This document shows positions 4,696 to 8,973 of a DNA stretch of 64,000 nt, one piece after another (positions within the stretch are counted from its first letter, which is position 1; every line of letters starts with the position of its first letter). The DNA is taken from contig WLJH01000009.1 in assembly GCA_009701885.1 (NCBI GenBank), forward strand, positions 62,001 to 126,000, given 5' to 3'. Below the pieces are notes generated by a model. It saw only the letters and a list, made by a program, of their open reading frames with translations, had not been told where the DNA came from and made no database searches. A program made the translations under genes and the position numbers. The DNA is from Actinomycetota bacterium. Lineage in GTDB: Bacteria > Actinomycetota > Actinomycetes > Propionibacteriales > Nocardioidaceae.

Positions 4696-6183
4696 TCAGC
4701 CGGCGAGGTGCTCCCGCACGGCCCCGGCGAACGCGTCACCGCGGGCGCCGTAGTGGGTGAACTGGTCCATCGAGGCGCATCCCGGGGCCAGCAGGACCGT
4801 GTCGCCCGGTCGGGCGAGCTGTGCTGCGGCCGCGACGACGCGTCCCATCGGACCGTGGTCACCACCTGTCACACCAGTCTCATCGTTCCCGACCCGGATG
4901 ACGGGCACATCCGGGGCGTGTCGTGCGAGCGCCTCGGCGACGACGTCGGCGTCGCGGCCGAGCAGGACGACCCCGCGCAGCCGGTCGCGCACGGCCTGCA
5001 CCAGCTCGTCGAAGCGGGCGCCCTTGGCCAGGCCGCCGGCGACCCAGACGACCGGGTCGTAGGCGCGCAGCGAGGACAGCGCCGCGTGCGGGTTGGTGGC
5101 CTTGGAGTCGTCGACCCAGGTGATGCCGTCGGCCTCGGCCACCACCGCGATGCGGTGGCCGTCGAGCCGGAAGCCGCGCAGCCCGTCGCGCACCGCCTGC
5201 TGCGAGACGCCGTGGGCCCGGGCCAGGGCCGCGGCGGCGAGCGCGTTGGACACGACGTGCGGGGCGTGGCTGGGCAGGTCGGCGACGGTGCAGAGCTCGG
5301 CGGCGCTGGTGCTGCGCTCCTCGATGAAGGCGCGGTCGACCAGGATGTCCTCGACCAGTCCCATCATGCCGACCGAGGGCATGCCGAGGGTGAAACCGAT
5401 CGCGCGGGCTCCCTCGACCACGTCGGCGTCGCGGACCAGCTGCTCGGTGACCGGGTCGGCCACGTTGTAGACGCACGCCCGCTGGGCGCGCTCGTAGACG
5501 CGGCCCTTGTCTGCGGCGTACGCGTCCATGGAGGGGTACCAGTCGAGGTGGTCCTCGGCGACGTTGAGCACCGCCGCCGACTCCGCGCTCATGGAGTCGG
5601 TGTAGTGCAGCTGGAAGCTGGACAGCTCCACGGCCAGCACGTCGTGCGGCACGGGGTCCATCACCGCCTCCACCAGGGGCAGCCCGACGTTGCCCGCGGC
5701 GACGCTGCGCAGCCCGGCGGCGCGCAGGATGGCATCGAGCATCTGCACGGTCGTGGTCTTGCCGTTGGTGCCGGTCACCGCCAGCCACGGGGTGTCGTGG
5801 TCGGGGTGGCGCAGCCGCCACGCCAGCTCGACCTCGCCCCAGACCGGGATGCCGCGCTCGCGGGCCTCGACCAGCAGCGGGCTGTCGGGCCGCCACCCCG
5901 GCGAGGTCACGACCACGTCGACGTGGTCCAGGTCGCTGGGCAGCGCGGCGGTGGTGCCGGGACCCAGGCGTACGTCGGCGCCGAGCACCTCGAGCAGCTC
6001 GGCCTTCTCCTCCTTGCCCTCGGCCTGCTCGTCGAGCGCGGTCACCGCGGCACCGAGGTGGGTCAGGTTGTCGGCCGCGGCGAAGCCGGAGACGCCGAAG
6101 CCGGCGACGACCGCGCGCACGCCGTCCCAGGAGTCGGTCTGGCCGAGGCCGTCGAGGTCGCGGCGGGCCCGGTGGCGGCTCAC
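4696..6183 (-). CDS. murD: UDP-N-acetylmuramoylalanine--D-glutamate ligase MurD
   Basis: Cytoplasmic Mur ligase adding D-glutamate to UDP-MurNAc-L-Ala. 495 aa. The N-terminal Rossmann start (AVVAGFGVSGFAAADNL), P-loop TGTNGKTTTVQ, metal-site segment LNVAEDHLDWYPS and DSKATNPHAALSSL are all present. The GTG at 6183 overlaps the mraY stop (GTGA); further upstream codons are inside mraY. A 46-bp gap separates it from ftsW. Confidence 0.95.
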   Translation of the reverse strand: MSRHRARRDLDGLGQTDSWDGVRAVVAGFGVSGFAAADNLTHLGAAVTALDEQAEGKEEKAELLEVLGADVRLGPGTTAALPSDLDHVDVVVTSPGWRPDSPLLVEARERGIPVWGEVELAWRLRHPDHDTPWLAVTGTNGKTTTVQMLDAILRAAGLRSVAAGNVGLPLVEAVMDPVPHDVLAVELSSFQLHYTDSMSAESAAVLNVAEDHLDWYPSMDAYAADKGRVYERAQRACVYNVADPVTEQLVRDADVVEGARAIGFTLGMPSVGMMGLVEDILVDRAFIEERSTSAAELCTVADLPSHAPHVVSNALAAAALARAHGVSQQAVRDGLRGFRLDGHRIAVVAEADGITWVDDSKATNPHAALSSLRAYDPVVWVAGGLAKGARFDELVQAVRDRLRGVVLLGRDADVVAEALARHAPDVPVIRVGNDETGVTGGDHGPMGRVVAAAAQLARPGDTVLLAPGCASMDQFTHYGARGDAFAGAVREHLAG

Positions 6184-7268
6184 GTGCCCGCGACCCACTC
6201 GGCGTAGAAGATGCCCAGACCACCGGCGACGCAGAGACCCGTGATGATCCAGAACCGGATGACCACCGTGATCTCCTCCCACACCATCTCGAAGTGGTGG
6301 TGGATCGGGGCGATGCGGAAGAGCCGCTTGCCCGTGCCCGTGATCCTGCGGGTCGCCTTGAACCAGGTCACCTGCAGCATCACCGAGACGGTCTCCATGA
6401 CGAACACGCCGCCGAGGACGATCAGCAGCAGCTCGGTGCGGGTCAGGATCGCCAGGCCGGCGAGCGCTGCTCCGAGGGCCAGCGAGCCGGTGTCGCCCAT
6501 GAAGATCTGTGCGGGCGCGGCGTTCCACCACAGGAAGCCGAAGCAGGCACCGGTGATGGCCGCGGCGATGACCGCCAGGTCGAGCGGGTCGCGCACCTCG
6601 TAGCACTTGCCGTAGGCGATGTCGGCCTGGCCGCACCACTGGTTGTTCTGCCAGATGTTGACGATCGTGTAGGCGCCGAAGACCATCACGCTGCACCCGG
6701 TCAGGAGGCCGTCGGCGCCGTCGGTGAGGTTGGTGGCGTTGCTGGTGGCGATGACCATCAGCAGGATCAGCGCGAGCACCACGACCATCGGCAGCACGAA
6801 GCTGTCGAGGTCGCGGATGAACGAGAGCGAGAACGAGGCCGGTCGCTGGCCCCGCTCGTCCTCCAGCGCAGGGCTGAGCGCGAGGATGCCGAAGGTCAGG
6901 CCGACGACGGTCTGCCCGACGATCTTGGCCTTGCTGCGCAGGCCCAGGCTGCGCTGCTTGTAGATCTTGATGAAGTCGTCGAGGAAGCCGACCAGACCGG
7001 TCCCGACGAAGAGCAGCAGCAGCAGCCAGGCCGAGGCGCTCGGCGGGGACATCGTGATGAGCTTGGCCGCGAAGTAGCCCACGACGCTGGCGGCGATCAG
7101 CACGACCCCGCCCATGGTCGGGGTGCCGCGCTTGACGTGGTGGGTCGTCGGCCCGTCGTCGCGGACCTCCTGGCCGTAGCCGAGGCGGGTGAACTGCCGG
7201 ATGGCGTAGCGGGTGCCGAGCAGCGAGATGAGCAGCGAGATGCCGCCTGCCAGCAGGATCGCCCTCAC
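6180..7268 (-). CDS. mraY: MraY, phospho-MurNAc-pentapeptide transferase
   Basis: Integral membrane transferase moving phospho-MurNAc-pentapeptide to undecaprenyl phosphate to make lipid I. 362 aa, about ten membrane segments. Family motifs are intact: GTPTMGG near the N-terminus, FLDDFIK, the NLTDGADGL loop, FMGDTGSLALG, and the HHHFE motif at PIHHHFEMVWEE. The GTG at 7268 gives VRAILLAGGISLL, the normal N-terminus, and overlaps the stop of the small ORF upstream (GTGA). The substrate pentapeptide requires MurF, which is not encoded in this window. Confidence 0.96.
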   Translation of the reverse strand: MRAILLAGGISLLISLLGTRYAIRQFTRLGYGQEVRDDGPTTHHVKRGTPTMGGVVLIAASVVGYFAAKLITMSPPSASAWLLLLLFVGTGLVGFLDDFIKIYKQRSLGLRSKAKIVGQTVVGLTFGILALSPALEDERGQRPASFSLSFIRDLDSFVLPMVVVLALILLMVIATSNATNLTDGADGLLTGCSVMVFGAYTIVNIWQNNQWCGQADIAYGKCYEVRDPLDLAVIAAAITGACFGFLWWNAAPAQIFMGDTGSLALGAALAGLAILTRTELLLIVLGGVFVMETVSVMLQVTWFKATRRITGTGKRLFRIAPIHHHFEMVWEEITVVIRFWIITGLCVAGGLGIFYAEWVAGT

Positions 7269-7423
7269 CGGCCGCCCACCTCCGTCCCTACCTGTGTCCT
7301 GCGGCCCGCTCCCGCGGGCCCGCGCCGCGGTCCGCCGTCGGACCGTCGACCATCTTCGCGCATGCCGGGCCCTCCCGGCCCGCGCCCCGCCGCGGGGGTG
7401 GCCATCCTCACGTGCGCGCTCAC
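7265..7423 (-). CDS. 52-aa ORF occupying the murF position
   Basis: This short frame has a GTG start overlapping the murE stop and a TGA stop overlapping the mraY GTG start (GTGA at both ends), the same coupling used by its neighbours. The 52-residue product is Arg/Gly/Pro-rich and basic, with no hydrophobic segment and no similarity to MurF that I can see (no P-loop, no UDP-substrate region). It may be a real small protein, a scar left by loss or relocation of murF, or a chance frame in GC-rich DNA. Only the overlap geometry argues that it is translated. Confidence 0.4.
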   Translation of the reverse strand: MSAHVRMATPAAGRGPGGPGMREDGRRSDGGPRRGPAGAGRRTQVGTEVGGR

Positions 7424-8973
7424 GTGCCCGCACCCGCGAGCAGGTCGCGCACGACCTCGCGGTCGTCGAAGGGGTGCACGACCCCGTGGACCTCCTGGCC
7501 GGTCTCGTGACCCTTGCCGGCGACGAGCACGATGTCCCCGGGAGCGGCCTGCTCGAGGGCCCAGGCGATGGCGCGACGGCGGTCGCCCTCCTCCCGGACC
7601 TCGGCGCGCTCGACCTCCGGCACCAGCGCGCACCCGGCCAGCACGGCGGCCCGGATCGACGCAGGGTCCTCGGTGCGCGGGTTGTCGTCGGTCACGACCA
7701 CGACGTCGGCGAGCCGGGCCGCGATCTCGCCCATGAGCGGACGCTTGCCGGTGTCGCGGTCCCCGCCGGCCCCGATGACCACCAGCACCCGGCCCGACGT
7801 GAGCGGGCGGAGCGCGGAGACCGCGGCCTCGACCGCGTCCGGCTTGTGCGCGTAGTCGACGACCACCTCGAAGTCCTGCCCGGCACGGATGCTCTCGAGC
7901 CGCCCGGGTACGCCGGCGAGCCCCGCGATCCCCTGCGCGACCGCTGCGGGGTCGAGCCCGGCCTCGCCCGCCGCGGCGATCGCGGCCAGCGCGTTGGAGA
8001 CGTTGTAGGCCCCGGCGAGGGGCACGCCGCCGGCGTACCGGGCCCCGGGGGCGAGGACGGTGAAGTCGGTGCGGCTGGGAGCCGGCTCGAGGTCGGTGAC
8101 CGACCAGGTCGCGCCTTCTCCCCCGCCGGTGGAGAAGGTCGCCAGCGGCAGCGTGGTCTCCCCCGCCAGCCGCCGCCCGTGCTCGTCGTCGACCGAGACG
8201 ACGGCGCGGCGGGCGCGCTCGGGGGTGAAGAGCGAGGCCTTGGCCTCGTAGTACTCCTCCACGGTGTCGTGGAAGTCGAGGTGGTCGCGTCCGAGGTTGA
8301 GGAAGACCGCGACGTCGAAGACGACGCCGTCGACCCGACCGAGCACCAGGGCGTGGCTGGAGACCTCCATGGCGCACACCTCGACGCCGCGCTCGACCAT
8401 GAGGGCGAAGAGCGCGTGCAGGTCGGGGGCCTCGGGGGTGGTCAGGGCGGTCCTGACGTCGGTGCCGGCGATCCGGGTGCCGACCGTCCCCACGACCGCC
8501 GGGACGGTGCCGGCCGCGGCCAGGCCGCCCTCGAGCAGCCGGGTGGTGGTGGTCTTGCCCTGGGTGCCGGTGACGCCGACCATCACCAGCCGACGGGCAG
8601 GGTGGCCGTAGACCTCGGCGCTGACCCGGCCCAGGAGCCGGCGCGGGTCGGGCACGACGACCAGGGGCACGCCGGGGTCGAGCCGCTCGGCACCCGCGGG
8701 GTCGGTCAGCACCGCGACGGCCCCGGCGGCCAGGGCCCGCTCGGCGAAGTCGGCACCGTGGGCCCGGGCGCCCGGCAGTGCGGCGTAGAGGTCGCCGGCC
8801 AGCACGCGCTCGCTGCTCAGCGTGATGCCGGTGAGCGCGGCCTCACCGCTCACCTCGGCACCGACCCCGAGCTCGGCCTCGATCCACGCGGCGAGCGCGC
8901 GCAACGAGGTGGTGGGCGGGTGCGTGGGGCGCGTCGCCGCGGTCTGCCCAGCCGTCCGGTCTGCGGTGGTCAC
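7420..8973 (-). CDS. murE: MurE, UDP-MurNAc-tripeptide synthetase
   Basis: Adds the diamino acid (diaminopimelate type) to UDP-MurNAc-L-Ala-D-Glu. 517 aa, slightly long because of an N-terminal tail of about 20 residues. P-loop GTQGKTT is at 136-142; the central segment LNLGRDHLDFHDTVEEYYEAK is typical; the diamino acid-recognition motif DNPR is at 430-433, followed by GKGHETGQ. These features identify MurE and exclude MurF or a MurE-MurF fusion. GTG start; 37 bp after ftsI. Confidence 0.95.
   Translation of the reverse strand: MTTADRTAGQTAATRPTHPPTTSLRALAAWIEAELGVGAEVSGEAALTGITLSSERVLAGDLYAALPGARAHGADFAERALAAGAVAVLTDPAGAERLDPGVPLVVVPDPRRLLGRVSAEVYGHPARRLVMVGVTGTQGKTTTTRLLEGGLAAAGTVPAVVGTVGTRIAGTDVRTALTTPEAPDLHALFALMVERGVEVCAMEVSSHALVLGRVDGVVFDVAVFLNLGRDHLDFHDTVEEYYEAKASLFTPERARRAVVSVDDEHGRRLAGETTLPLATFSTGGGEGATWSVTDLEPAPSRTDFTVLAPGARYAGGVPLAGAYNVSNALAAIAAAGEAGLDPAAVAQGIAGLAGVPGRLESIRAGQDFEVVVDYAHKPDAVEAAVSALRPLTSGRVLVVIGAGGDRDTGKRPLMGEIAARLADVVVVTDDNPRTEDPASIRAAVLAGCALVPEVERAEVREEGDRRRAIAWALEQAAPGDIVLVAGKGHETGQEVHGVVHPFDDREVVRDLLAGAGT

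Follow-up and report, generated by a model that had tools for sequence, protein, structure and literature searches.

We consider it likely that, in part of the genus Nocardioides, a murF-ddl pair of other MurF and Ddl lineages came to occupy the ddl locus, that the murF gene of the dcw cluster was deleted while a putative promoter element of mraY was spared, and that the same MurF lineage was the source of the murF found in vanHAX clusters. Promoter activity, the transfer, and the order of events are what we infer by comparing sequences. The positions of essential dcw genes are commonly taken to be fixed. In several lineages of this one genus, a pair of essential enzymes that act one after the other seem to have been swapped as a unit, and deletion of the old gene seems to have halted at a signal concealed within its reading frame.

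Results

murF is missing between murE and mraY in 12 of 37 Nocardioides genomes

The features at the murE-mraY junction of the window (i.e., the whole 64,000-nt stretch of DNA that was analysed) are as follows:

murE: 7420..8973, minus strand; full length, last gene ahead of the gap (NF001124, 596 bits; cut-off, 476)
Gap: 7269..7419, minus strand; 151 nt at the position that murF holds in 25 of 37 congeners
mraY: 6180..7268, minus strand; first gene past the gap (TIGR00445, 300 bits; cut-off, 192)
52-codon open frame: 7265..7423, minus strand; GTGA at both ends, with no evidence for a gene

The start codon of mraY is GTG (7268-7266, minus strand), and the downstream order murD, ftsW, murG, murC is intact in the window. 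The dcw order murE-murF-mraY does not hold here: murF is missing, and the remaining genes are in order. An earlier, sequence-only reading of this DNA had proposed that murF is absent from the dcw cluster, which is true of the cluster (151 nt between the end of murE at 7420 and the start of mraY at 7268) but not of the genome, and that MurE is complete and unfused, with which the NF001124 score above agrees. A MurE-MurF fusion was considered and ruled out, as the match to PRK11929 (463/1023 bits) covers no more than the MurE part. Scanning the window for known RNA elements gave no match above the gathering scores.

The junction was then compared across sister species, a check that the same reading had suggested. 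Our genus set comprised 37 Nocardioides genomes (G000-G036), the present genome among them. The arrangement murE-murF-mraY was found in 25 of these ("dcw type"), and murF was missing from the dcw cluster in the other 12. All 37 genomes have exactly one MurF above the cut-off, and none has both copies. From the order-level set of 21 relatives, four were viewed gene by gene (G037, G039, G041, and G049), and all four carry murF in the dcw cluster. As a separate observation, G001 has a tandem mraY-like pair between murE and murD (L083:4132-6519), with 70% and 66% identity to the MraY of the window.

The single murF of the genome lies next to ddl

The other suggested check, a search of the genome for a MurF homologue, returned a single match above the cut-off in the 78 contigs (3.96 Mb), and this murF lies beside ddl (C12:104971-106242, 404.5 bits; TIGR01143 cut-off, 288.6). 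The alignment spans positions 1-418 of the 418 in TIGR01143, and the N-terminal, middle, and C-terminal Mur ligase domains are all present (PF01225, PF08245, and PF02875); by family membership, the product is predicted to be a full-length MurF ligase. The ddl gene starts 11 bp after murF, on another contig than the dcw cluster. Specifically, the locus reads plsC-like, gpsA, a gene that we take to encode cystathionine gamma-synthase (CGS, other strand), murF, ddl, a second Ddl-like gene, a DUF3515 gene (other strand), thiL, and yloV. By score, the product of ddl is a D-Ala-D-Ala ligase (NF002528, 466 bits; cut-off, 262) and stays below the cut-off of the D-Ala-D-Lac ligase model (260 bits; cut-off, 550), and a search of the genome for VanX gave no match. 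Since Ddl makes D-Ala-D-Ala and MurF attaches D-Ala-D-Ala, the two genes would work as a single unit.

The CGS-murF-ddl arrangement ("slot type") occurs in 7 of the 12 murF-less genomes (G000, G006, G010, G013, G016, G027, and G031), the present genome included, and all seven are without a dcw murF. At the ddl locus of the dcw-type genomes, we found CGS and ddl with no match to murF or to the second Ddl (25/25). Because the dcw-type genomes hold CGS and ddl without murF at that locus, the native ddl of the seven slot-type genomes was exchanged in place for a murF-ddl pair of other lineages. Among named loci, the best 80 by MurF similarity from a longer list comprised 10 in the ddl slot, 32 in the dcw cluster, 37 linked to vanA or vanHA(X), and 1 in neither setting; the named species with the ddl-slot arrangement include N. 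cremeus, N. insulae, N. lianchengensis, N. acrostichi, and N. nematodiphilus.

In three of the other five murF-less genomes (G001, G011, and G015), murF is of the slot lineage and adjoins a Ddl-like gene. In G001, this neighbour is VanA (561 bits; cut-off, 550), with a VanH ahead of it that scores below its cut-off (480 bits versus 540); in G011, VanX follows (363 bits; cut-off, 320); and the named record matching G015, N. turkmenicus, has VanH, VanA, and VanX. In G018 and G036, murF groups with the dcw lineage and has a long branch. Each of the five genomes has a single Ddl above the cut-off, the one beside murF, and for this reason a wall ending in D-Ala-D-Lac would be expected in the van-type genomes G001, G011, and G015.

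Several further features of these loci were observed. The murF of G018 (L055:5593-9861) adjoins an M15 peptidase, an alanine/serine-racemase-like gene, and a Ddl, a set reminiscent of van sets of the D-Ala-D-Ser type. The ddl slot of all five genomes (L078-L082) holds divergent MurF-like and Ddl-like genes with 32-36% and 28-31% identity, respectively; the MurF-like product in G001 and the Ddl-like products in all five fall under the family cut-offs. An alpha/beta hydrolase is present in the divergent slot of G015 and G018, the two tested. The second Ddl-like gene (L006:10483-11496; 222 bits versus a PRK01372 cut-off of 243) lies beside murF-ddl in five of the seven slot-type genomes and beside the divergent pair in 5/5, and has no match at the ddl locus of the 25 dcw-type genomes.

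A conserved 12-nt element precedes mraY

One further feature of the gap is shared among genomes:

Conserved element TGCGCGAAGATG: 7351..7362, minus strand; 82 nt ahead of the start of mraY, probable -10 region of a promoter for this gene

The murF-less gaps measure 36-187 nt (n = 12). A motif like TRCGSNARRATG reached a score of 97.7 in nine non-redundant gaps, compared with 75.6 +/- 2.9 (largest, 82.8) in 60 shuffles of equal effort. The motif occurs in 11 of the 12 gaps, 43-119 nt ahead of mraY, and is absent from the 36-bp gap of G027. Of the 25 dcw-type genomes, 23 also have it ahead of mraY, inside the 3' end of murF. The same pattern matched 0 of 1,473 other stretches of these loci and 3 of 1,000 shuffles, and none of the four order-level outgroups. 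In the window, 7351-7362 is its sole match, with 0.31 expected and at least one found in 30 of 100 shuffles.

Within the 3' end of murF, the motif encodes [WR]-[VL]-R-x-N, and 24 of the 25 dcw-type genomes spell this Asn as AAT. Across the parts of eight dcw genes that were matched in these genomes, AAT makes up only 49 of 1,538 Asn codons, and 24 of those 49 are the motif site (binomial probability 3e-35, which is overstated because the sequences are related and the calculation ignores kinship). Likewise, the columns of two-codon residues that mostly end in T number 2 of 556, and the motif Asn is one of them. Since AAT is fixed at the motif though rare elsewhere, the nucleotides seem to be held there, and not the residue alone. 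The locus offers a natural experiment, in which promoters inside dcw genes could be found by codon use. Several family members have AAC or another residue at the motif Asn site; together with the absence of the motif from the order-level outgroups, this means that the element is young, which speaks against our reading.

The core of the motif, nAnnAT, is a loose -10 and is conserved at a fixed region upstream of mraY; a by-eye look at a few sequences revealed no evident -35 box. Because a core of this kind 82 nt before mraY reads best as a -10, we consider the element most likely to be a putative mraY promoter. It could instead be another nucleic-acid signal for mraY, such as a protein-binding site or an RNA processing or translation signal, which would fit the conservation of both the T of AAT and the flanking TGCG, as well as the failure to find a -35. 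However, a position 43-119 nt before mraY and the nAnnAT core suit a promoter best, and the element turns up in the settings where the gene upstream of mraY is gone or overlaps it, so that we regard a signal of another kind as somewhat unlikely.

In G010, the gap is a recognisable relic of the 3' part of murF. It aligns to murF 175-115 nt before the stop codon with a score of 56 (best of 40 shuffles, 31), and the motif falls within the aligned stretch. Since the sister species of G010 retain murF, its loss looks the youngest. Homology to murF beyond the motif was shown in none of the other 11 gaps, that of the present genome among them, and for the gap of G000, 11 of 40 shuffles scored equally high against murF. 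The idea that a full-length gene collapsed while its coupling was kept is thus borne out for the collapse, by the relic in G010; what the gaps retain, however, is the 12-nt element and not a reading frame.

A second fixed T-ending codon was observed near the 3' end of murD (window 4909-4911, minus strand), within CGACACGCNCCNGATGT. This Asp codon is GAT in 24 of 24 dcw-type genomes in the survey of columns, and another count gave 32 genomes with GAT versus 2 with GAC; the site is kept in two of the four order relatives. It is perhaps another signal hidden inside a dcw gene.

MurF and Ddl appear to follow lineages other than those of their hosts

The MurF tree separates the slot type, together with G001, G011, and G015 (100/100), from the dcw type, together with G018 and G036 (100/98), and six alignment columns set the slot and van MurFs apart from the dcw MurFs. 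The slot Ddls also form one clade (98), which lies outside the native Ddls of the genus and of three of the four order relatives (89). By comparison, the tree of dcw proteins and the RpoB tree (built without G004, which has only a partial gene) each need four changes of murF state, although several branches that keep the murF-less groups apart in these host trees have weak support (e.g., 83 in the RpoB tree).

The clearest case is G010. Its dcw proteins (100) and RpoB (97) place it with G008 and G032, both of the dcw type; GpsA (91, with G005 also in the group) and ThiL (84) do so less firmly, and in the CGS tree it is unresolved near the same two genomes. Despite these dcw-type neighbours, G010 has a MurF and a Ddl that belong to the slot type. 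A slot-type pair hosted among dcw-type species points to transfer of murF-ddl, probably by recombination at the ddl locus. Of the three explanations offered by the sequence-only reading, "murF has moved" comes nearest, given the full-length murF beside ddl on another contig, but the change is not a plain relocation: the MurF belongs to a lineage other than that of the dcw murF of sister species, and ddl was exchanged too.

The main rival to transfer is an ancient duplication followed by differential loss, in which the ancestor had two murF genes, one in the dcw cluster and one at ddl, and every lineage retained just one of them without any transfer between lineages. An old paralogue would be expected next to the dcw MurFs of Nocardioides and Marmoricola, which is where the slot MurF clade lies, and the weak host-tree branches noted above leave room for it. 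Against this, not one of the 37 genomes retains both copies; native and slot Ddls are two lineages at one position and cannot both be ancestral there; and the dcw genes and RpoB, followed less firmly by GpsA and ThiL, place G010 among dcw-type species. We therefore judge duplication unlikely and prefer transfer of the pair.

The gap frame and the assembly do not explain the missing murF

The small frame with GTGA at both ends, to which the earlier reading had drawn attention, exists, but chance suffices to account for it. At 81% G+C, a run of 52 codons is free of stops in 61% of simulated sequences, and this frame has no NCBIfam or Pfam match. That it is a real small gene that took the place of murF in the operon would agree with the GTGA overlaps at either end and with the 7 of 12 murF-less gaps (length 1 modulo 3) in which a frame joins the murE overlap to the mraY overlap; yet the frame is lost in the five gaps of the wrong length, at least 7 of 12 is not rare at a one-in-three chance, some of the genomes are pairs of close kin, and the gap-frame peptides of murF-less genomes, judged by eye, are alike only at the motif. 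Such a gene is very improbable.

Loss of about 1.4 kb with murF between the two ligase genes during assembly, which the 78 contigs of the present assembly might suggest, can practically be dismissed, since the empty junction is common to 12 of 37 congeners, four of them in single-contig assemblies (G001, G013, G027, and G036), and a complete murF lies elsewhere in the genome.

The slot MurF lineage as a candidate source of vanHAX-cluster murF

Before the 100-row MurF tree was built, 18 dcw rows (L188-L205) and the duplicates L126, L133, and L176 were removed, and the MurF tree was thinned to 77, 92, and 87 rows. In the 77-row tree, for which the bootstrap had not fully settled, the slot MurFs group with the van-linked ones in a single clade (100/99); its neighbours are the dcw MurFs of Nocardioides and Marmoricola, and all of these together receive 98/91. 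The van-linked MurFs of this lineage include those of vanHAX clusters in Streptomyces, Frankia, and Jiangella. The MurF of the present genome is in the clade with them (100/99), outside the van-linked subclade, and the MurF of G027, which lies in the ddl slot, joins the van MurFs (100/99); by RpoB, G027 is sister to the van genomes (96). Among the van MurFs, those of Nocardioides branch first.

AU tests, with clades named after the trees were seen, rejected placing the van MurFs outside Nocardioidaceae (p = 8e-5), as well as placing only the non-Nocardioides van MurFs outside it (p = 5e-70). Grouping all slot MurFs as one clade gave p = 0.024 with 77 rows and p = 0.051 with 87 rows. In addition, we surveyed 394 genomes of the class; the query aligned seven van-linked MurFs with two of the slot type, and the survey is hence biased toward these. 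Among the matches listed, eight from other families scored 777-803 bits, and all eight lie beside vanH and vanA; the next six are Nocardioides MurFs (653-724 bits), all in the ddl slot, followed by matches of at most 586 bits.

Altogether, these results suggest that the slot MurF lineage, nested in Nocardioidaceae, may be the source of the murF of vanHAX clusters, indicating a housekeeping source for this MurF. We are less sure that the van MurFs descend from the ddl-slot copy in particular. Our confidence is evenly balanced on a fuller scenario, in which the vanHAX MurF across Actinobacteria, that of Streptomyces toyocaensis too, would have arisen in Nocardioides within a cassette of two genes, where Ddl was its partner. 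By replacing the native ddl, this cassette would have spread in the genus and let the essential dcw murF shrink to the mraY promoter in its 3' end; in the N. albus/luteus branch, it would have given its murF to vanHAX, with loss of the ordinary D-Ala-D-Ala ligase.

Previous work places murF near vanHAX in several orders, including Propionibacteriales (PMC8698665), and near van loci in Ktedonobacteria (PMC9689679). The accessible part of PMC8698665 does not include MurF among its phylogenies or mention Nocardioides, and the accessible parts of PMC11273654 and PMC7325946 contain no mention of murF or Nocardioides; a MurF phylogeny appears in none of these parts of the van literature, that of PMC9689679 included. 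In a search of mostly open-access literature, we found no report that describes the murF-ddl exchange, places an mraY promoter within murF, or traces the origin of the vanHAX MurF.

Discussion

Our proposed course of events is as follows. The murF-ddl pair would have reached several lineages through recombination at the gpsA-CGS-ddl-thiL locus. Its arrival would have made the dcw murF redundant, and that copy would then have been deleted. The element inside the 3' end of murF would have been spared during the deletion because mraY and the genes that follow would rely on it for their transcription. Finally, the murF lineage nested in Nocardioidaceae would have supplied the murF of vanHAX clusters.

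Several known systems come close to the present one. In Bacillus subtilis, ddl and murF are neighbours outside the dcw cluster. The present genome likewise has murF outside dcw and next to ddl; in contrast to B. subtilis, the order here is murF-ddl, and the state varies inside one genus. Fused MurE-MurF proteins (NCBIfam PRK11929) also depart from separate murE and murF genes, whereas the MurE of the window matches the MurE part only and is not fused.

In the accessible part of its description, the teicoplanin cluster of Actinoplanes teichomyceticus carries murF2-vanHAX (PMC4790382). The likeness is that of a MurF outside dcw, paired with a ligase making its dipeptide, and similar loci of other actinobacteria hold MurFs of the lineage of the present genome, the A. 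teichomyceticus MurF itself being outside our trees. Here, unlike at murF2-vanHAX, the partner scores as a D-Ala-D-Ala ligase, VanX was not found in the genome, and the dcw murF is gone.

A counterpart to the putative promoter is found in Mycobacterium tuberculosis, where, according to the accessible part of PMC3605390, murE is the first gene of the dcw operon and the promoter lies inside the preceding gene, Rv2159c. The two cases share a dcw promoter within the coding sequence of an upstream gene; however, the M. tuberculosis promoter drives murE from Rv2159c, whereas the putative one described here would serve mraY, lies within murF in relatives, and appears to have outlasted the loss of murF.
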